This document shows, piece by piece, positions 1,774-10,085 of a stretch of 35,497 nt of DNA. Numbering within the stretch: position 1 is the first letter of the stretch; the number at the start of each line of letters is the position of its first letter. The notes under the pieces were generated by a model. The model saw only the letters and a program-made list of their open reading frames with translations. It was not told where the DNA came from and did not search any database. Where the stretch lies: positions 1 through 35,497 of the forward strand of contig JARGOP010000047.1 of assembly GCA_029233965.1 (NCBI GenBank), written 5' to 3'. The position numbers were made by a program, and so were the translations under genes. The DNA is from Verrucomicrobiales bacterium. Its GTDB lineage: Bacteria; Verrucomicrobiota; Verrucomicrobiia; Verrucomicrobiales; DEV007.

Positions 1774-2262
1774 TCACGCCTCCCTGTTCACCTCTTTCAA
1801 AAACCCCTCCAACCGCGCCCGCGTGAATCGTTGAAGGATGAGGCAGGGCAGGTTGGAGAGAAAGGCGTAGACGATCATGACGATCGCGGCGACGGGCCAG
1901 GGGTTCCAGAACAGGGTGAGGAGGATCCCGGGAATCTGTGCGTAGTGGGCGGCTTCGCCGCGACAGGTTTCGGCAATAAAGGCACGCAGGTAGACGGGGT
2001 CTTTATCGCCGAGTTTCCCCTTGGCGAATCCATCGAACCAAGGCGCGGCGTCGGGGAGGAGATGTTTCCAGCGGCGAATGCGAAAGAGACGCTGGTAGAG
2101 GTCCCCGCCCGCTTCCGGGGGGCGGATACGGAAAAGCGCCGACTGCGGGTCAAAGCGGTCCCGGTCCATCCGGGTATAGATCCACGAAATGCTCAGATGG
2201 ATCGCAGGGATGCCAACGACGTTCAGGAGAACGATCCAGACATTGGAGAGATCAAGTAACAT
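1774..2262 (-). CDS. crtO: CrtO-like glycosyl-C30-carotenoate acyltransferase
   Basis: This small membrane protein of 162 residues matches Staphylococcus aureus CrtO (165 residues), which esterifies the sugar of glycosyl-4,4'-diaponeurosporenoate with a fatty acid in the last step of staphyloxanthin synthesis. Shared features are RRWKHLLPDA near residue 63, an ETCRGEAAHYAQI segment near 96-108, and the C-terminal NLPCLILQRFTRARL. There is a hydrophobic N-terminal helix and a second membrane segment around 110-145. Its start overlaps the end of the upstream glycosyltransferase gene by 11 bases, which suggests translational coupling. It is the last gene of the leftward operon. The acyl donor and the exact product are not readable from sequence. 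Confidence 0.82.
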   Translation of the reverse strand: MLLDLSNVWIVLLNVVGIPAIHLSISWIYTRMDRDRFDPQSALFRIRPPEAGGDLYQRLFRIRRWKHLLPDAAPWFDGFAKGKLGDKDPVYLRAFIAETCRGEAAHYAQIPGILLTLFWNPWPVAAIVMIVYAFLSNLPCLILQRFTRARLEGFLKEVNREA

Positions 2263-3361
2263 TGCGCCCTTTCCACTGCACGGCCCCGCCTTCCTTCCGG
2301 CGTCTCAGGGCGCGGAAGAAGACGGCCTGATAAAAAGCCAGGCCCACCGGGAAGAAGAGCGCGCTGAAGACACTGAAGTTCCCCGCATTCTTGAGGAGAT
2401 AGAGCGACTGAATCACCCCGAGCAGGTAGAGCCCGAGGATGACGTAGAGAGCCGCGACGGAAGCCAGCGGAATGAACGCCAGGGCGATGACGCTCATGAT
2501 GAGTCCGGAAAGCCAGATCGAGATGCCGATGAGAGCGCTCTTCGGCGTGTTATCGGCACCGGAGACAATGCCTTTGCTCCAACCGGCTACGAGGTCGCTA
2601 GAGTTTGTCGGGAACATTCGCATCCAGATGGTGCCGCGCCCGAGATAGCAGCGGCAGGTGTAACCGGCTTCGGAGAGGAACCGGGAGAGGTGAAAGTTTT
2701 CGAGGACCTCGTGTTTGACGGGTTCATGACCCCCGACTTTTTCATATTGTTCGCGCGAGATGAAAAGCGCCTGCCCGAAAAGACCGACCTGCTTCGCCCC
2801 GGAGCCCTTGAGGGTAAAGGCATTCATCCCGAGAATCATGATGACATTGAAGAAGGCGGAGAGTTGCTCGTAGAGGTACCTCACACGGTGGTAGGGGCAG
2901 ATGGAATGAACGCTCGACGGGTCGTTCGAAAGATCGGCGATGCGCAGAAGGCCGCCGGCTTCGAGAACGGTATCGGCGTCGAGGAAGAGAAACCAGTCCC
3001 CGGTCGCGGCCCCGGCTCCCTGCCGACAGGCCCAGGGTTTTCCATACCACCCGGCGGGGAGGGGCTTGCCATCAATGACTTTGGCCCCGAGCGAGGTCGC
3101 GAGCCCGGCGGTGTTGTCAGCAGACTGGTCGTTTACGACGATGATTTCGTGAGCGGCGAATTCCTTATCCTGCAGTGAGGGAAGGAGGCGGGAGAGGTTT
3201 TCCTCTTCGTCGCGGGCGGGGATGATGATAGAAATTTTCACGAGCGGCCTCGGCGCTCCGGGAGCCAGCGGAGGAACGGTCCGGAAACGGGCGGAAAGGA
3301 TCCAGCCGAAGATCCAGCAGAGGAAAACGAGACTGAGAAAGATCCAGAGGAAGAGGTCCAT
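2252..3361 (-). CDS. crtQ: CrtQ-like carotenoid glycosyltransferase (GT2)
   Basis: This 369-residue family-2 glycosyltransferase resembles 4,4'-diaponeurosporenoate glycosyltransferase. An N-terminal membrane anchor (residues 2-23) precedes the GT-A domain, which has IIIPARDEEENL near 45, VVNDQSADNT near 76, the metal-binding DADT near 128 and GLFGQALFIS near 190. Two or more hydrophobic segments follow at about 290-350. In staphylococci the enzyme attaches glucose to the carotenoid carboxyl group; Rubritalea makes xylosyl esters, so the sugar here is open. It starts 92 bases after the oxygenase gene stops, and its 3' end overlaps the acyltransferase start. Confidence 0.82.
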   Translation of the reverse strand: MDLFLWIFLSLVFLCWIFGWILSARFRTVPPLAPGAPRPLVKISIIIPARDEEENLSRLLPSLQDKEFAAHEIIVVNDQSADNTAGLATSLGAKVIDGKPLPAGWYGKPWACRQGAGAATGDWFLFLDADTVLEAGGLLRIADLSNDPSSVHSICPYHRVRYLYEQLSAFFNVIMILGMNAFTLKGSGAKQVGLFGQALFISREQYEKVGGHEPVKHEVLENFHLSRFLSEAGYTCRCYLGRGTIWMRMFPTNSSDLVAGWSKGIVSGADNTPKSALIGISIWLSGLIMSVIALAFIPLASVAALYVILGLYLLGVIQSLYLLKNAGNFSVFSALFFPVGLAFYQAVFFRALRRRKEGGAVQWKGRNVT

Positions 3362-3452
3362 GAAGCAGTACGCCGGACGAGGTTACGAATGGGATACCGG
3401 CGTCACGCCGCGTTTTTCACCAGCAGCACCGGCGGAACGCAGGTGACACGTT

Positions 3453-4970
3453 TCACGACATTTTCGCTTCCTGCTTCAGGACGCGGTCGGCCACTTTCTG
3501 CCCGCAGAGGATGACCATCGGCATCCCGCCCCCGGGGTTGACGCTGCCGCCGGTGAAGAAGAGGTTCCGGTATTTGGAGGACTGCTTCGGCGCTTTGAAA
3601 GCCTGGTTCTTTTTCCAGTCGCTGACGACGCCGTAGATGGAGCCGCGATTCGAATTGTACATGGCCTCGATATCGACGGGCGTAAGAACGTCCTCCACCA
3701 CGGTATGCTTCCGGAGATCGGTCAGACCCATGCGCTCCAGCTTGTTGATGACGCGATCTTTCAGCGCCATGTAGTCTTCGTGGGTGTGCGGCTTGTCGGG
3801 ATTGATCGGGGGGATGTGCGGAAGGATCTTGATGTTGTCGTGGCCTTCCGGGGCCTTCGATGGATCGGTCCGGGTCGGGGCGACGAGGTAGATCGTCGGA
3901 TCCTCGGGAAGCTCGCCTTTTTGGAAGACGGTGTCGAAGTGCTTGTTCTGATTCTTCGAATAGAAAAAATTGTGGTGCGCGAGCTGGTCGTAAATCTTGT
4001 CCGTCCCGAGGTGAATGACGAGACCGGAGCAGGCGGGCTCAAATTTCTCAAGTTTCTTCGTGAACTCCAACGGTTCACTGAGAAGCTTCCTGTAAGCCGG
4101 CAGGACTTCCATGTTGCAGACGACGTAGTCGGCATTGATCGTCTCGCCGTTTTTGAGGGTCACGCCGGTGACGTCTTTGCCGGACTGATTGATCGTCTCA
4201 ACCTCGCTGTTGAACCGGATCCGGATCCCGATATCGGAGACGAGCTTGTCGAGCCCGCGGGCAAGATTGTACATGCCGCCTTTCACATACCAGAGACCGT
4301 AGTCGAACTGGATCAGGGACATCATGTTCATGTAGCCCGGCGCGTCTTTCGCGGAGGAGCCGACATACTTGATGAAGTATTCAAAGATGAGACGGAGATA
4401 CTCGTCATCGAGCTTGTTGTAGATGGACTCCGACATGGTGTGACCATGATCCATCTTAAAAATGAGACGCCAGCCGTAGTGGCGCAGCATTTCCCAGACG
4501 TTGTCGAGGCCCTTGTCAAAATAGCCCTCATCGGTGAGCGCATACTGCTCGCGTCCGTATTCGAGAAAGGCCTGAAACTGCTCCCAGTTTTTGTCGAGAT
4601 CCCCGGGGAGCTTTTCGAGCTCCTTTTTCATGAGATCCATTTCCTCGTAGAGATCGAGGACGAGGCCGTCTTCAAAGAAGTTCCGCCAGTGGGGGGTGAC
4701 CGACTGGAGCTGCACGTAGTCCTCCATTTTCTTTCCGGCCCGTTCCCACAGACTCTCGAAGAATTGAGGCAGGGTGAAAATGGAAGGACCAAGGTCGAAA
4801 CCGAAACCATCGATCTCCTTGAAGTTCAGCTTGCCGCCGACTTTTTCATTCTTCTCGACGATCTCAACGTCGAAGCCTTCGCCCCGCAGGGAGATGGCAG
4901 CGGATAGACCTCCGAGACCGGCACCGACGACAACGACTTTTTTCCCTCTCGGGGAGGCGGTTTCGCTCAT
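3453..4970 (-). CDS. crtP: CrtP-type 4,4'-diaponeurosporene/diapolycopene oxygenase
   Basis: This FAD-dependent CrtI-family enzyme oxidises a terminal methyl group of the C30 carotenoid chain to an aldehyde. The dinucleotide-binding fold is at residues 11-47 (VVVVGAGLGGLSAA). Similarity to staphylococcal CrtP runs end to end: GFGFDLGPSIFTLP, YFIKYVGSSAKDAP, LAHHNFFYSKN, ILPHIPPI, GLTDLRKH and the C-terminal FAD segment GGSVNPGGGMPMV. These blocks separate it from CrtN and phytoene desaturases. The 505-residue length is normal (S. aureus CrtP 497). Its ATG overlaps the TGA of the upstream desaturase by four bases, so the two are probably translationally coupled. Confidence 0.87.
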   Translation of the reverse strand: MSETASPRGKKVVVVGAGLGGLSAAISLRGEGFDVEIVEKNEKVGGKLNFKEIDGFGFDLGPSIFTLPQFFESLWERAGKKMEDYVQLQSVTPHWRNFFEDGLVLDLYEEMDLMKKELEKLPGDLDKNWEQFQAFLEYGREQYALTDEGYFDKGLDNVWEMLRHYGWRLIFKMDHGHTMSESIYNKLDDEYLRLIFEYFIKYVGSSAKDAPGYMNMMSLIQFDYGLWYVKGGMYNLARGLDKLVSDIGIRIRFNSEVETINQSGKDVTGVTLKNGETINADYVVCNMEVLPAYRKLLSEPLEFTKKLEKFEPACSGLVIHLGTDKIYDQLAHHNFFYSKNQNKHFDTVFQKGELPEDPTIYLVAPTRTDPSKAPEGHDNIKILPHIPPINPDKPHTHEDYMALKDRVINKLERMGLTDLRKHTVVEDVLTPVDIEAMYNSNRGSIYGVVSDWKKNQAFKAPKQSSKYRNLFFTGGSVNPGGGMPMVILCGQKVADRVLKQEAKMS

Positions 4971-6550
4971 ACAGAAACGGGTGTTTTGGTGTAGGAAAGG
5001 CCGAAGGAATCGGAGATCAGGTTCGATGAGATACGTGCCGACTCAAAAATCGTAGGCAGTCCGCTGCCGGGATGGGTGCCGCCGCCGACAAGGTAGCAGT
5101 TCCGGAATTCTTCGAAACGGTTCCGCGGCCTCATGAAGGCGAGCTGGCTGAGGCAGTGCGACAAATTGAAGGTCGCGCCCTTGAAAATATCGAGCTCGGT
5201 TTCCCAGGTCTTCGGCGTGTAGATCTTTTCGACTTCGATGTTTTCTTCGAGGTCGTCCATGCCGAGACGCTCCGCGAGGGCCCGCATCGTCAGTTCACGG
5301 TAGCGGGCCTGCGCCTCGTCCCAGTCGATGCTTCCATCCAGATTCGGCGTCGGAACAAGTACGTAGAGACTGGACTTCCCTTCCGGCGCGAGGGTCGGGT
5401 CCGTGACGCTGGCGTTGCGCAGGTAGAAAGAAATGTCCGCAGACTCCTGACAGGAATTGAAGATCTCGGTGATGTTTTTTTTGTAATCCCTCGCAAAAAC
5501 AATCGTGTGATGCGGGAGATCATATTTCTTCTTCACGCCGAGATGCATCATGAAGGTCGAGCAGCTGTATTTCATCGATTTCAGCTTTTCGGTCGTGTAT
5601 TTCTTCAACGCTCCATCCGGCACGAGCTTTGACATCGCCTGGGCGAAGTCGGCGTTGATGACGACGCTGTCGGCCATGACCTTCTCGCCATTTTCCAGCT
5701 CAACCCCGGCGACCTTGCGACCATCGAGGATCAGTTCCTTCACCGGCGTTCCCGTGTGAATGTGGGCCCCACAGTCGGCGGCCGCTTTTCCAAGCGCTTC
5801 GGGAATCTTGCTGAGGCCGCCGATGGTGTGGAAGATGCCGTGCTCGTGCTCCATGTAGGAAAGCATCGCGAAGGCTCCGGGACACTCCCAGGCGGACATC
5901 CCGAGATATTTGGACTGGAAGGAGAAAAGGAGCGCGAGCTTGTCGTCGGTGAAATATTTCTTGAGGTTGTCGAAGACGGTGGTCCCGAGCGAGAGATGCG
6001 GCAGCGCCGAGAGCAGCGTCGGATCAAGGGCGCTTACGGGACTCGAGAAACCGCGCTCAAAGGCGGGAAGGAGGCAGTTGAGACGGGATTTCTCCCGCTC
6101 TAAAAAACGATCCATCCCGGCGGATTGGCCCGGAAAGAGGCGTTCGATCTCTTTCTTCGTGTCTTCCACATTGTCTCCGGCGCGGAAAATCTCGTTATCG
6201 TAGCGGAGCTCATACATGGGGTCGAGCCGGACAAAATCGAGGTAGTCCTCCGAGGACTTCCCGGCTTCGGTGAAGATGCGGTCGAGAAGCGACTTCATCA
6301 TGAGAAACGTCGGCCCGATGTCGAACTTGTAGCCGTCGATCTCGTGGGCAGCGGTGCGCCCCCCGAGACGATCATGTTTCTCAAAGAGATGAACTTCCAC
6401 CCCGCGGCTCGCGAGCAGCAAAGCACTGGCCACCCCGCCGGGACCTCCGCCAATGATGATAACCTTTTTCCGGCCGCCGCCTGACCCGTCAGAATCTGGT
6501 CCTCTCATATTTTCTGAAATGCCTGTCTGTTGTCTCCCTCTCATCCTCAT
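4967..6550 (-). CDS. crtN: CrtN-type C30 carotenoid (diapophytoene) desaturase
   Basis: This CrtI-family flavoenzyme should introduce the conjugated double bonds into dehydrosqualene or squalene. It has the nucleotide-binding motif VIIIGGGPGGVASA at about residue 30, then FDIGPTFLMM, SCSTFMMHLG, SSLYVLVPTPN and the C-terminal GGTHPGSGLPTI, which follow CrtN rather than CrtP. It is first in the leftward operon. The listed ATG gives about 26 residues before the fold; internal ATGs at 6544 and 6508 are equally possible because no start has a convincing ribosome-binding site. Desaturase versus oxygenase is assigned by similarity blocks, and substrate (squalene or dehydrosqualene) cannot be told. 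Confidence 0.82.
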   Translation of the reverse strand: MRMRGRQQTGISENMRGPDSDGSGGGRKKVIIIGGGPGGVASALLLASRGVEVHLFEKHDRLGGRTAAHEIDGYKFDIGPTFLMMKSLLDRIFTEAGKSSEDYLDFVRLDPMYELRYDNEIFRAGDNVEDTKKEIERLFPGQSAGMDRFLEREKSRLNCLLPAFERGFSSPVSALDPTLLSALPHLSLGTTVFDNLKKYFTDDKLALLFSFQSKYLGMSAWECPGAFAMLSYMEHEHGIFHTIGGLSKIPEALGKAAADCGAHIHTGTPVKELILDGRKVAGVELENGEKVMADSVVINADFAQAMSKLVPDGALKKYTTEKLKSMKYSCSTFMMHLGVKKKYDLPHHTIVFARDYKKNITEIFNSCQESADISFYLRNASVTDPTLAPEGKSSLYVLVPTPNLDGSIDWDEAQARYRELTMRALAERLGMDDLEENIEVEKIYTPKTWETELDIFKGATFNLSHCLSQLAFMRPRNRFEEFRNCYLVGGGTHPGSGLPTIFESARISSNLISDSFGLSYTKTPVSV

Positions 6551-6636
6551 TGTAAGGCCAGTAGGGCTGGTTATTCTTCGATTCGGGTCTGTGCGAAGTC
6601 GACTATTTTTTTCGACTGTGGAGCGGTTCAGAGCTA

Positions 6637-8064
6637 ATGGTGGGAAGCATTCCGCACAATTTGCTCAACTCCTGTATGTCTGATTCGCCTCCTGACCCTG
6701 TCGATTACGATTTGAAGGCACTTCTGGAAGCTCAGCGTGCGTATTTTCGCCTCGGATCGACCCGATCGATCGATTTCCGCAGGGAGCGCCTCAAGGGGCT
6801 CGAGGCTGAGCTGGTGAAACGGAGCGATGACCTGCTCGCCGCGCTCGCTTCCGATCTCGGAAAACCAGCGCTCGAAGCCTACGTTTCCGAGGTTTTCTTC
6901 AGCATCGCTGAGATCCGGCTCGTCGTGAAAAAGCTCTCGCGCTGGGCCAAACCGAAGCGGGTCGGGAATCCTTTCTACTATTGGCCGGCTCGCAGTGAGG
7001 TCCGCCGCGAACCCTACGGGACCGCGTTGATCGTCGCGCCCTGGAATTATCCGGTCCAACTTTCGCTGAGTCCTCTCGTGGCGGCAGTCGCGGCCGGAAA
7101 CACAGTCGTCCTGAAACCATCCGAACTCGCTCCGGCCTCATCGACGATTCTGGCTGAAATTATCAAAGCCGCGTTTAACCCCCAGCACGTCGCGGTCGTG
7201 GAAGGCGGTTCGGAGCTGGGCAAAGAGCTTCTCAAACACTCTTTCGATTATTGGTTCTACACCGGAAGTGAGCGGGTCGGTCGTCTCTACGGTGAAGCAG
7301 CGGCGCGCTACCTCGCCCCGATCACCCTGGAGTTGGGGGGGAAATGTCCCGTTGTCGTCGCCGATGACGCTCCCATCGAAACCACGGTGGAGCGAATCAT
7401 CACCACCAAATTCTTCAACGCGGGCCAGACCTGCATCGCCCCGGATTTTGTGCTCGTGCCCAGTCATCGACACGAAGCGTTCGTGGCGGCCGCGAAAGCC
7501 GCGCTCGAAAATGCCTACGCCGACAATCCCCGCGAAAACCTCGCCCGCATCGTGAATCACGACCACTACGAACGGATCCGTTCGCTCATTCCGCTGGAAG
7601 CGATTCGCGTCGGGGAAGATGATCCCGAAGACCGCTTCCTCGCCCCGACTTTGATCCCTTATTCGACCTGGGAGTGCCCCGTCATGCAAGAGGAGATCTT
7701 CGGCCCTGTCCTCCCGATCATCCCGTATCACGACATCGACGGGGAAATCGGTCGTCTCAGCCGGATGCCGTCGCCTCTCGCGCTCTACCTCTTCTCACGT
7801 CGCGACGATTTTCTCGAAGCGATTGCCGCCGCCGTTCCGTCGGGTTCGGTTTGTTTCAACGATGCGATCAAACAGGCGACCAACCTTGAGCTTCCTTTCG
7901 GCGGCGTGGGTGCCAGCGGGATGGGGCGCTATCGTGGCAAAGCGGGATTTGAAGCCTTTTCCTATCAGCGTGCCGTCACGAAACGCTGGTTCTGCAAAGA
8001 CCCCTTTCTCGTGAAACCACCTTACGGCAATCGCCTTGGGAGTTTGCGAAAGTTGATGAAATAG
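6637..8064 (+). CDS. aldH: Class 3 aldehyde dehydrogenase, probable C30 carotenal dehydrogenase
   Basis: This NAD(P)-dependent aldehyde dehydrogenase is of the class 3 type. The catalytic Cys266 (NAGQTCIAPDF) and general base Glu232 (LELGGKCP) are intact, and the N-terminal half has APWNYPVQL and KPSELAP. It resembles the staphylococcal AldH that oxidises 4,4'-diaponeurosporenal to the acid, including the fatty-aldehyde-type C-terminus (LPFGGVGASGMGRY, then LVKPPYG). It is divergent from the crtN operon, with only 86 bases between them, so a shared control region is likely. An alternative start at 6676 (MSDSPPDP) removes 13 residues and fits homologue length better. A general fatty-aldehyde role cannot be excluded. 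Confidence 0.85.
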   Translation: MVGSIPHNLLNSCMSDSPPDPVDYDLKALLEAQRAYFRLGSTRSIDFRRERLKGLEAELVKRSDDLLAALASDLGKPALEAYVSEVFFSIAEIRLVVKKLSRWAKPKRVGNPFYYWPARSEVRREPYGTALIVAPWNYPVQLSLSPLVAAVAAGNTVVLKPSELAPASSTILAEIIKAAFNPQHVAVVEGGSELGKELLKHSFDYWFYTGSERVGRLYGEAAARYLAPITLELGGKCPVVVADDAPIETTVERIITTKFFNAGQTCIAPDFVLVPSHRHEAFVAAAKAALENAYADNPRENLARIVNHDHYERIRSLIPLEAIRVGEDDPEDRFLAPTLIPYSTWECPVMQEEIFGPVLPIIPYHDIDGEIGRLSRMPSPLALYLFSRRDDFLEAIAAAVPSGSVCFNDAIKQATNLELPFGGVGASGMGRYRGKAGFEAFSYQRAVTKRWFCKDPFLVKPPYGNRLGSLRKLMK

Positions 8065-8097
8065 AAACCATTCGCTCACCGGGGTGTTTCAATTCCC

Positions 8098-9423
8098 ATG
8101 AGAGTCTTCCCAGTCTGTTTCCCCGCAGTTCTCGCCCTGTTTCTCACCACTTCCCTCCGGGCGCAGGAAAAATCAACCAAAGGCAAAGGACGCCCCATGC
8201 CTCTGCAAGGTGAAACCCTCCCCGATATCTCCGGATTCGACGAGGAAGGTAATGCCTTTCCCCTGAGACAGAAATTGAAGGGCAGACACGGCGTCATTGT
8301 TTTCGGCTGTCTGACATGACCTCCTTTCATACGCAACGTCCCCGGTCTGGAGGCAATCTATCGTGATTACAAGCCAAAGGGTGTCGATTTTTACTTCGTC
8401 TACAAGGCACTCGCCCATCCTGAAAAGGACGGGCTCGTGCAACCCGTGACTCTTGCAGAACGGCTCAGCCACATCGAAAAAGCAAAGAAGCAGCTGGGAA
8501 CGACGATCCCCTGGATCGCCGACTCGATGACGAACGAACTCAAAAACGCCCTGGGCGATCGAAACAATTCCGAAATTGTGGTGACACCTGACAGCATCAT
8601 GACCGTCGCCCGCGACTGGAGCGATCCTGCAGCGCTGCGTATCGATCTGGAAAAACTCGTCGGCAAAGCTGACACCCTGACGCAGGTTTCTGAACTGGAT
8701 CTGAAAGTTGTCGACGATGTCTCAGATCACCCTGACATTCCCACACGAATTGTTCCGCGGTTGGACCGACCGGACGATTCCGAAGCTCTCCTCGTCAAAG
8801 CGACCGGTGAAGGACCTCACTACCTGAAACTGCGGACCGAGGCCGAAAAGTCGGTTTCGCGCGGTTCAGGAGGAACCCTCCACCTGAGCTTTCAAATGGA
8901 TCCGATTCATGAGGTTCACTGGAACAACCTCGCTCCCCCCATGAAATTCACGATCGATGCTCCGGAGGGAGTCACGATTGATCCTCCCTCCGGAGAAGCC
9001 GCGAAAGTGACCGCAGCGGAATCTGATTTGGACCCCCGGGAGTTTCTCGCCCAAATCACAGGAGGCTCAGCCGACGCACCCCTCACCGTCACCGTGGATT
9101 ACTTCGCCTGCGACGACGCAGGAAAGTGGTGTAAACCGGTGACTCAGATTTTCGAAATCACGCTGGAAGTGGACCGCAACGCGGGCCGGGTTCAGCCGCC
9201 GGGCGGGCGGTCGCAACGCGGAAAAATGAAAGGTGGCCCCGGCGGAGGACGCGGGATGCCGGACCCTGATCAGATCCTGAGCCGATTCGACACGAACAAT
9301 GACGGCAGCCTCACCAAAGACGAGGCGACTGGCCCGATGGAGCGGCGGTTCGATCAGGTGGATGTAGATGACGACGGCATCCTCACCGGCCGGGAACTGA
9401 AAGCTTTTTTCGAAAACCGCTGA
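8098..9423 (+). CDS. Secreted deiodinase-like selenoprotein with DsbD-like segment and EF-hands
   Basis: I read one frame from ATG 8098 to TGA 9421-9423, with an in-frame TGA at 8317-8319 as selenocysteine 74. Residues 1-22 are a signal peptide. Residues 64-190 follow iodothyronine deiodinases: VIVFGCLTUPPF at the active site, FVYKALAHPEKDG containing His107, a LAERLSHIEKA helix, and IPWIADSM. The deiodinase signature normally reads FGSCTUPPF, so the TGA lies exactly at the Sec position; Cys71 gives a CxxU redox pair. Residues 225-358 resemble the DsbD N-terminal domain, with Cys338 and Cys345. After a Gly/Arg-rich linker come two canonical EF-hand loops at 398-409 and 422-433. A role in extracytoplasmic thiol/selenol redox chemistry is inferred; iodothyronine as substrate is not implied. 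Automated callers would split it or start at 8437. Confidence 0.82.
8317..8354 (+). promoter_or_regulatory. Candidate bacterial SECIS element downstream of the UGA codon
   Basis: Starting at the UGA (8317-8319), CCTCC (8320-8324) can pair with GGAGG (8349-8353). Alternatively CCCC (8340-8343) pairs with GG-GG across an A bulge to present GGTC (8344-8347) in the loop, the same loop bases as the E. coli fdhF SECIS. The loop begins 24 bases after the UGA, within the usual bacterial range. The stem is short and alternative pairings exist, so the fold is tentative while the position is right. Confidence 0.45.
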
Positions 9424-9482
9424 GGCTTTTCCCGGCCCTTCCTGTCACACGGAACGAGGATCGTCCCGCTACGTCCTTGTCA

Positions 9483-10085
9483 TCATCCACGACTCCGCTC
9501 CAACACGACCATCATCAAGGTCGAGAGCATGATACGAAGCTGGTCTCCATCGTCAATGGCCCCCACCTGTTCGAGAATGAATTTCCCCTCCCAGAAGGCG
9601 GGCTGCTTTTTGATGCACACCAACACCTCGCCCGTGTCGATGCGTTGGATGAGATAGGTCGGGTTGAAGAAGTAGCCGGCAAACGCCCCGATGATGGGGA
9701 TCTCTCCGAAAACGCTGTCCATCACTTTAATCCATCCGTTTTCCTCGCGGATTTCATACTCCGGCGTCTCGTGATCGAGAATCTCATAATGCGCTCTCCA
9801 GAGAGATCGCATCCCCTTGCGGCGGATCGCACCGAAGGCCTCTCCCGCGTTCGTGTAGAAGGTGTACTTCGCGGAAAAATCGATGATCCGGTCCGCTTTG
9901 ATTTCGCAGAGTTTTTCCGTTCGCGTCTCGTCGGTGAAGACCTCGACCGCTTCCTTGAGCTTGAACAGTTTCTGCTTCACGTAGCAGACCGTTTCCCCGG
10001 CAGCGTTTGTGACCCTGAGCTGGGGAGCGAGGGCGACGATTTTGAAGGTGAGTTCCAGGGGATACTGCATCGCGAAGTGAATCAC
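9483..10085 (-). CDS. LURP-one-related (tubby-like fold) protein
   Basis: This 200-residue protein has the pattern of LURP-one-related/scramblase-like proteins: alternating short strands with AGETVCYVKQKLFKLKEAVEVF near residue 30, a GEAFGAIRRKG strand pair near 88 and a hydrophobic C-terminal helix (LRIMLSTLMMVVLE). Members of this fold form a 12-stranded barrel around a buried helix; the biochemical role in bacteria is not established. An ATG five codons downstream (10070, MQYPLEL) may be the true start. It is convergent with the upstream selenoprotein gene and has no clear operon partner. Confidence 0.6.
   Translation of the reverse strand: MIHFAMQYPLELTFKIVALAPQLRVTNAAGETVCYVKQKLFKLKEAVEVFTDETRTEKLCEIKADRIIDFSAKYTFYTNAGEAFGAIRRKGMRSLWRAHYEILDHETPEYEIREENGWIKVMDSVFGEIPIIGAFAGYFFNPTYLIQRIDTGEVLVCIKKQPAFWEGKFILEQVGAIDDGDQLRIMLSTLMMVVLERSRG

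Follow-up and report, generated by a model that had tools for sequence, protein, structure and literature searches.

The region at positions 8098–9423 of the window (the whole 35,497-nucleotide stretch of DNA that was analysed) is, judged by sequence comparison, almost certainly one selenoprotein gene on the plus strand, with the TGA at 8317–8319 encoding selenocysteine (Sec). The reading that we favour, with moderate confidence, is that its product is an exported selenol oxidoreductase of the CxxU type, re-reduced by a DsbD-alpha-like domain in the same chain. The fusion to this domain offers a lead on function: it suggests a reductase acting outside the cytoplasm, with a specified source of electrons.

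The gene was recognised from two frames in the same phase, 8098–8319 and 8320–9423, which are split by a single TGA. This layout had been claimed by the sequence-only reading, and its coordinates and motifs were found as claimed. The joined protein has 441 residues and is terminated by a TGA of its own. It contains FGCLT-U74-PPF, followed downstream by FVYKALAHPEKDG and IPWIADSM. TGA was the ordinary stop in 12 of the 30 listed frames, a count that takes in the window along with L055 and L057, two broken copies. Since TGA doubles as an ordinary stop in these genes, the Sec reading hangs on context.

A search of genome contigs found two Verrucomicrobiales MAG loci (L024 and L025) with 67% and 65% identity in their best segments, spanning residues 1–441, and both carried TGA at the same codon as the window. 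For the wider homologue sample, 386 genomes of the order to which the window belongs were searched. A match at E ≤ 0.001 was obtained in 178 of them, and many of those listed matched through EF hands alone. Three loci were left out before counting: L024 and L025 duplicate the contigs of L032 and L033, and L010 is the window itself. All 26 non-duplicate fetched loci, window included, had TGA at the Sec codon, at approximately 39–69% protein identity to the window. One of these copies (L055) kept the TGA and had its frame broken further downstream. Furthermore, genome G355 carried FGCLAUPPF with TGA in a copy whose frame breaks elsewhere, which brings the TGA form to 27 genomes; these are related to each other and do not represent 27 independent events.

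Cys occupied the Sec position in six relatives spanning both the redoxin and the DsbD-alpha-like domains (L056, L058, L060, L099, L100, and L101), and the chains of L060, L099, and L100 end without EF hands. Retention of TGA in homologues and replacement by Cys in relatives were the two outcomes of a check that the sequence-only reading had proposed. The protein alignment (A3) held 31 rows, 25 Sec and six Cys, after L055, L057, and L102 were left out of it and of the tree on account of broken frames. In the unrooted tree, the Sec and Cys labels were split on one branch with support of 100/100, and some long branches were flagged. Two genomes, G112 and G109, encode a Sec form together with a Cys paralogue. 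A separate copy, L057 (G101:C114), has TGC at the Sec codon, retains the hairpin sequence downstream, and has a broken frame; it may be a Sec-to-Cys change, possibly a fossil, or a decaying copy.

The N-terminal part of the protein contains a redoxin or deiodinase-like thioredoxin-fold domain at residues 37–168 (8206–8601, plus strand), with a PF08534 match at 3.6e-07. Searched as a single protein, its best redoxin-type PDB relatives were Dio3 (0.0007) and Dio2 (0.00083). With the 31-row profile, Dio3 (4tr3) reached 8.8e-08 and Dio2 9.6e-05, ahead of ResA at 0.00078. Thus, searching the joined protein against databases, as had been suggested, returned type III and type II deiodinases as the best solved relatives of redoxin type. 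The deiodinase model PF00837 (T4_deiodinase) scored 23.1 of 27 bits on the window protein (5.1e-05), below its curated cut-off, and matched 24 of the 31 members at E ≤ 0.01. NCBIfam NF038285 (deiodinase family protein) matched all 31 members at E ≤ 0.01 and gave the window protein 50.6 of 250 bits, below its cut-off; no NCBIfam model exceeded its cut-off for this protein.

The active site is C71-L-T-U74 (8308–8319, plus strand). C71 was present in 31/31 rows of A3, and residue 74 was Sec or Cys in 31/31. According to the available text of PMC9141512, residue 126 of DIO1 (Sec, replaced by Cys in the mutant examined there) forms a bond with the Cys at U-2, on which recycling by glutathione depends. 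The window protein has Leu at U-2 and Cys at U-3, which makes its site a thioredoxin-style CxxU. The proton relay of Dio2 is given as Ser127, Thr129, Tyr157, Glu160, His162, and His182 in the available part of PMC11592359. By the Dio3 alignment and counting, the equivalents of Thr129, Tyr157, and His162 are retained as T73, Y102, and H107, and those of Ser127, Glu160, and His182 are replaced by C71, L105, and E121; the equivalence of E121 with His182 is uncertain, being in a loop with insertions. All six relay columns were invariant in A3. By sequence, the N-terminal domain is related to deiodinases in fold and in part of the active-site neighbourhood, yet it is no plain deiodinase. The earlier label "deiodinase-like" therefore stood for these two aspects and did not extend to the proximal Cys, three of the relay positions, or PF00837, which stayed under its cut-off.

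The sequence-only reading had also mentioned additional domains, and these could be specified as a remote DsbD-alpha-like domain and two EF hands. The DsbD-alpha-like domain spans residues 226–366 (8773–9195, plus strand). In hhalign, alignment A4 (from which L059 was left out, as its match ends early) was matched to the DsbD-alpha set A6 at 72.7% and 3.2e-05, with both Cys aligned with the DsbD-alpha pair, whereas the control redoxin domain gave 0.1%. The Cys pair is C338 and C345 (9109–9132, plus strand), found in 29/31 and 30/31 rows of A3, respectively; L059 is without the pair and L054 has Ser in place of C338. PF11412 (DsbD_N) gave 17.3 of 25 bits on the isolated domain (0.0051), below the cut-off, and matched 8 of 30 members at E ≤ 1. 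In a DsbD_N search of 12 genomes at E ≤ 0.05, this gene was absent from the matches of its own genome. A PDB profile search with the C-terminal domain returned one chain at E 0.98, which was no DsbD, and the whole protein alone gave one DsbD chain at 0.76. Modelled without an alignment, the C-terminal domain was a predicted beta-sandwich with pLDDT 68.9, and the fold search gave generic beta-sandwiches with no DsbD among the matches listed. An AlphaFold model of the whole protein from three sequences was unusable (pLDDT 44.2).

The two EF hands are at residues 391–439 (9268–9414, plus strand). PF13405 matched them at 4.8e-07 with 29.4 of 25 bits, over the curated cut-off, and EF-hand models matched 27 of the 31 A3 members at E ≤ 0.01. 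Membership of the lanmodulin or XopAW families was rejected; these were EF-hand cross-matches under cut-off.

The protein is probably exported, as suggested by a probable signal peptide at residues 1–22 (8098–8163, plus strand; boundary between LRA and QE), which was read by eye; many rows of the family alignment likewise begin with a hydrophobic stretch. Given Cys at U-3, Leu at U-2, and the altered relay, redox chemistry would be expected in which Sec attacks and C71 resolves. The electron relay, the export, and the calcium role that we infer would fit together as follows. Beyond the inner membrane, the selenolate would attack a substrate that is either oxidised or electrophilic, and Cys71 would resolve the Sec adduct to a selenenyl-sulfide. 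This would be reduced by C338/C345 of the fused DsbD-alpha-like domain, and the pair would in turn be recharged by a membrane DsbD. The EF hands would bind calcium and may stabilise, place, or tune the protein. On contig C17 the genome itself encodes a candidate DsbD, a frame of 714 residues whose DsbD_N domain scores over cut-off, and on contig C95 there is a 315-residue one. Thyroid-hormone deiodination is not expected.

A more far-reaching version of this scheme is put forward tentatively. The protein might be a calcium-tuned, self-contained extracytoplasmic selenium relay, in which electrons pass from the membrane DsbD to the fused Cys pair and on to the CxxU site of the same chain. It could then be a dedicated reductase in Verrucomicrobiales-related bacteria, with a substrate outside the range of the known selenoprotein families.

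Two other activities were weighed against the oxidoreductase reading. A periplasmic peroxidase, in which Sec reduces peroxides and Cys71 resolves as in Sec peroxiredoxins, would suit the PF08534 Redoxin match and a PF00578 AhpC-TSA match under cut-off. However, the PxxxTxxU motif given for Sec peroxiredoxins in the available part of PMC13188914 is absent, the motif here being CLTUPPF, and the best solved chains were deiodinases followed by ResA-type proteins, with the peroxiredoxin 3cmi only ninth at 0.019. We regard this activity as rather unlikely. Less likely again is a true reductive dehalogenase, in which the selenolate would, like that of deiodinases, strip the halogen off an organohalogen, for instance a halogenated aromatic, and the DsbD-alpha-like domain would serve solely to supply electrons. 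The TUPPF and AHP segments common with deiodinases speak for it, as do the retained and invariant relay equivalents T73, Y102, and H107. On the other hand, C71, L105, and E121 are just as invariant at the positions of Ser127, Glu160, and His182 (the last alignment being uncertain), and Leu72 stands where DIO1 has its proximal Cys124, as given in the available text of PMC9141512.

In the exported oxidoreductase reading, the ribosome decodes the TGA at 8317 as Sec via SelB, tRNA-Sec, and a short hairpin 3' of the codon. Sequence comparison shows the Sec codon, the Sec machinery, and the conserved Cys. The sel genes, whose presence had been proposed as a check, were found in the genome. Contig C131 carries selD (5156–6214), selA, and selB together, with scores of 376.3 bits for selD, 506 bits for selA, and 257.7 bits for selB (286 with its neighbour), all over cut-off. 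This selD has an in-frame TGA of its own, in SSCAGUASK. For selC, the 5' 54 nt of a tRNA-Sec, anticodon included, were located in the terminal bases of contig C22 (length 21253), and this piece is 100% identical to the tRNA-Sec of G112 (anticodon TCA by ARAGORN). Thus, selC is truncated by the assembly at a contig end rather than shown to be absent.

The selC piece surfaced only when the tRNA-Sec of the relative G112 was used as a DNA query. RF01852 gave 11 matches in this genome with none over cut-off, and the eight of these that were fetched were identified by ARAGORN as tRNAs for Ser, Gly, Leu, and Tyr. A tRNA-Sec pattern search of this genome had no match, and the two halves of contig C131 yielded no tRNA with ARAGORN. 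Besides the end of C22 (L084), a 28-base piece resembling the 3' end of a tRNA-Sec is located near the start of another contig (L085, C146:56–84). This arrangement may mark a site of integration within selC, or simply a break in the assembly.

Across the sample, selA was detected (E ≤ 1e-30) in all but one of the 27 Sec-form genomes compared to 117 of 386 overall; the 26 include G121, where selA is a partial match under cut-off. The one exception, G196, does contain a tRNA-Sec match, at 60.9 bits. With 94 candidates scored per genome, RF01852 exceeded its cut-off in 17 of the 27 Sec-form genomes. It was not over cut-off in G000 (piece only), G068, G043, G175, G147, G382, G277, G321, G306, and G355. 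ARAGORN called tRNA-SeC in 18 of the 19 best loci, the exception being L078 of G158.

Downstream of the TGA, a candidate bacterial SECIS hairpin is located at 8337–8355 (plus strand), with the stem 8337–8343/8349–8355 and the loop GGTCT at 8344–8348. Codons +8 to +11 after the TGA, around this small hairpin, were constrained at synonymous sites. At codon +8, Ser was TCC in 15/15 loci and the remaining 11 loci had CCC. At codon +9, Gly was GGT in 21/21 and Ser was AGT in 5/5, compared to a pooled GGT share of 0.21 among the Gly codons of these genes. Leu at codon +10 was CTG in 24/26 and TTG in 2/26, and codon +11 was Glu GAG in 23/26. Codons -2, -1, and +5 showed a milder bias.

In a synonymous recoding test, z was negative in 26/26 loci with a mean of -1.66, and 11/26 were individually at ≤5%. 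The window's own copy of the hairpin is weak, with 5/7 pairs, z of -0.45, and 36% of recodings folding equally well. The pair count was based on 24 distinct 27-mers from the 26 loci; 90.5% of cells were paired, with 7 both-sided cells. The cells paired and the covariation score were equalled or surpassed by very few shuffles (2 and 1 of 500, respectively), whereas two-sided-change pairs and further pair types were no higher than in the shuffles (equalled or surpassed by 228 and 349 of 500). Slides of +1 and -2 gave covariation of 0.271 and 0.240 versus 0.226, but only 54.8% and 56.0% of cells paired versus 90.5%. When folded alone, the 69-nt stretch 8312–8380 was no better than shuffles (z +1.23), and an Rfam scan of 7900–9600 at E ≤ 10 had no match.

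In the available part of PMC1088965, bacterial SECIS elements are described as hairpins 3' of the TGA whose small apical loop contains a G. A hairpin of this type was found at the family level, with mixed pair-count controls, and is weak in the window copy alone. The GGTCT is common to E. coli fdhF (base 22 from its TGA) and the window (base 28), and the genome's own selD has GGTCC from base 36 at the tip of a predicted hairpin.

These comparisons also bear on whether the TGA could be something other than a Sec codon. A TGA read as Trp or another ordinary amino acid, or reassigned, would explain why the frame continues open past it; this is highly improbable, since the gene itself and 12 of the 30 listed frames stop at TGA, relatives carry Cys rather than Trp at position 74, and Sec machinery is encoded in the genome. 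Weaker still, to a degree that it can practically be set aside, is a pseudogene or sequencing error with a chance nonsense codon, to which the empty Rfam scan and the unremarkable local fold would lend themselves, and against which stand the identical TGA in 26/26 Sec-form loci with the flanking frame open on both sides except in L055, the Sec machinery, and the synonymous constraint after the TGA. Both explanations were rejected, and the earlier claim that the TGA is not a chance nonsense codon is borne out by its recurrence in every Sec-form locus.

The surroundings of the selenoprotein gene were also inspected. An aldehyde dehydrogenase lies 33 bases upstream, an arrangement found in the two nearest relatives alone; for most other loci, however, only about 1.5 kb of flank was available, so the context is uninformative on function. 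Positions 2252–8064 of the window hold a glycosyltransferase 2, two FAD amine-oxidase-type proteins, and the aldehyde dehydrogenase in a row, which we take to resemble a C30 carotenoid cluster. A phage-type integrase (PF00589, 1.8e-38) is encoded at 286–1743, near the start of the window.

Other deiodinase-like genes were encountered in the same order. A second TGA-containing family (L086–L098) has FGS[HY]TU[GP]PF in 13/13 fetched loci; several members have EF hands N-terminal to the redoxin domain, and those printed retain a deiodinase-type EAH segment. The genome of the window encodes a Cys-type T4_deiodinase protein (L001, C89:52843–53298) with 70.8 bits, over the Pfam cut-off, and the motif FGSYGCDTF.

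Bacterial deiodinase-like selenoproteins have been listed before. The available text of a 2005 survey reported four Sec and six Cys deiodinase-like sequences, with function only guessed to be redox (PMC1088965). A 2026 review counts 119 selenoprotein families or subfamilies in its available part and gives the deiodinase-like one as UxxC (PMC13188914). The same prokaryotic motif stands in a table of PMC9312934, and the available part of PMC2398784 gives none. In the available part of that review (PMC13188914), no entry of Table 1 has the domain layout described here. A literature search by title, covering open papers only, found none on such a CxxU/DsbD/EF-hand selenoprotein or on a deiodinase-like selenoprotein of Verrucomicrobia. 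With the present family, the record of the deiodinase fold outside thyroid-hormone biology grows by 27 genomes, a conserved hairpin, and a clade of Cys paralogues.

Compared to the iodothyronine deiodinases (PF00837; 4tr3, 9h48), the window protein has the T-U-P-P-F, Tyr, and AHP segments in common within a thioredoxin-like domain. It differs at the proximal Cys, which deiodinases have at U-2 (Cys124 in DIO1; the Dio2 chain has Ala, so this Cys is not universal) and for which the window protein has Leu72, with its Cys at U-3. The likeness to the N-terminal (alpha) domain of DsbD (PF11412) is remote and consists of a common Cys pair before the last strand, profile similarity, and a possible beta-sandwich, predicted from the single sequence with generic fold matches. 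The Cys spacing is C-x6-C in the pair-bearing Sec forms versus C-x5-C in E. coli DsbD-alpha, and the domain is fused here to an enzyme domain and in DsbD to a membrane reductase.

TsoB (NF045694), entered in Table 1 of PMC13188914 as a Rhodanese/DsbD fusion-like protein, is likewise a selenoprotein joined to a DsbD-like part. Compared by its description in that table, it differs in having a Rhodanese domain, a UxxxxU motif, and two Sec residues. The prokaryotic deiodinase-like selenoprotein, as far as described in the available parts of PMC1088965 and in Table 1 of PMC13188914, agrees with the window protein in being bacterial, in its deiodinase-related domain, in its TGA-coded Sec, and in having Cys relatives. 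Some of the sequences listed under that name may belong to the CxxU subfamily reported here. By its available description as UxxC, however, the listed family is set apart from the window protein, which has CxxU, UPPF with Phe at U+3, a DsbD-alpha-like domain, and C-terminal EF hands.
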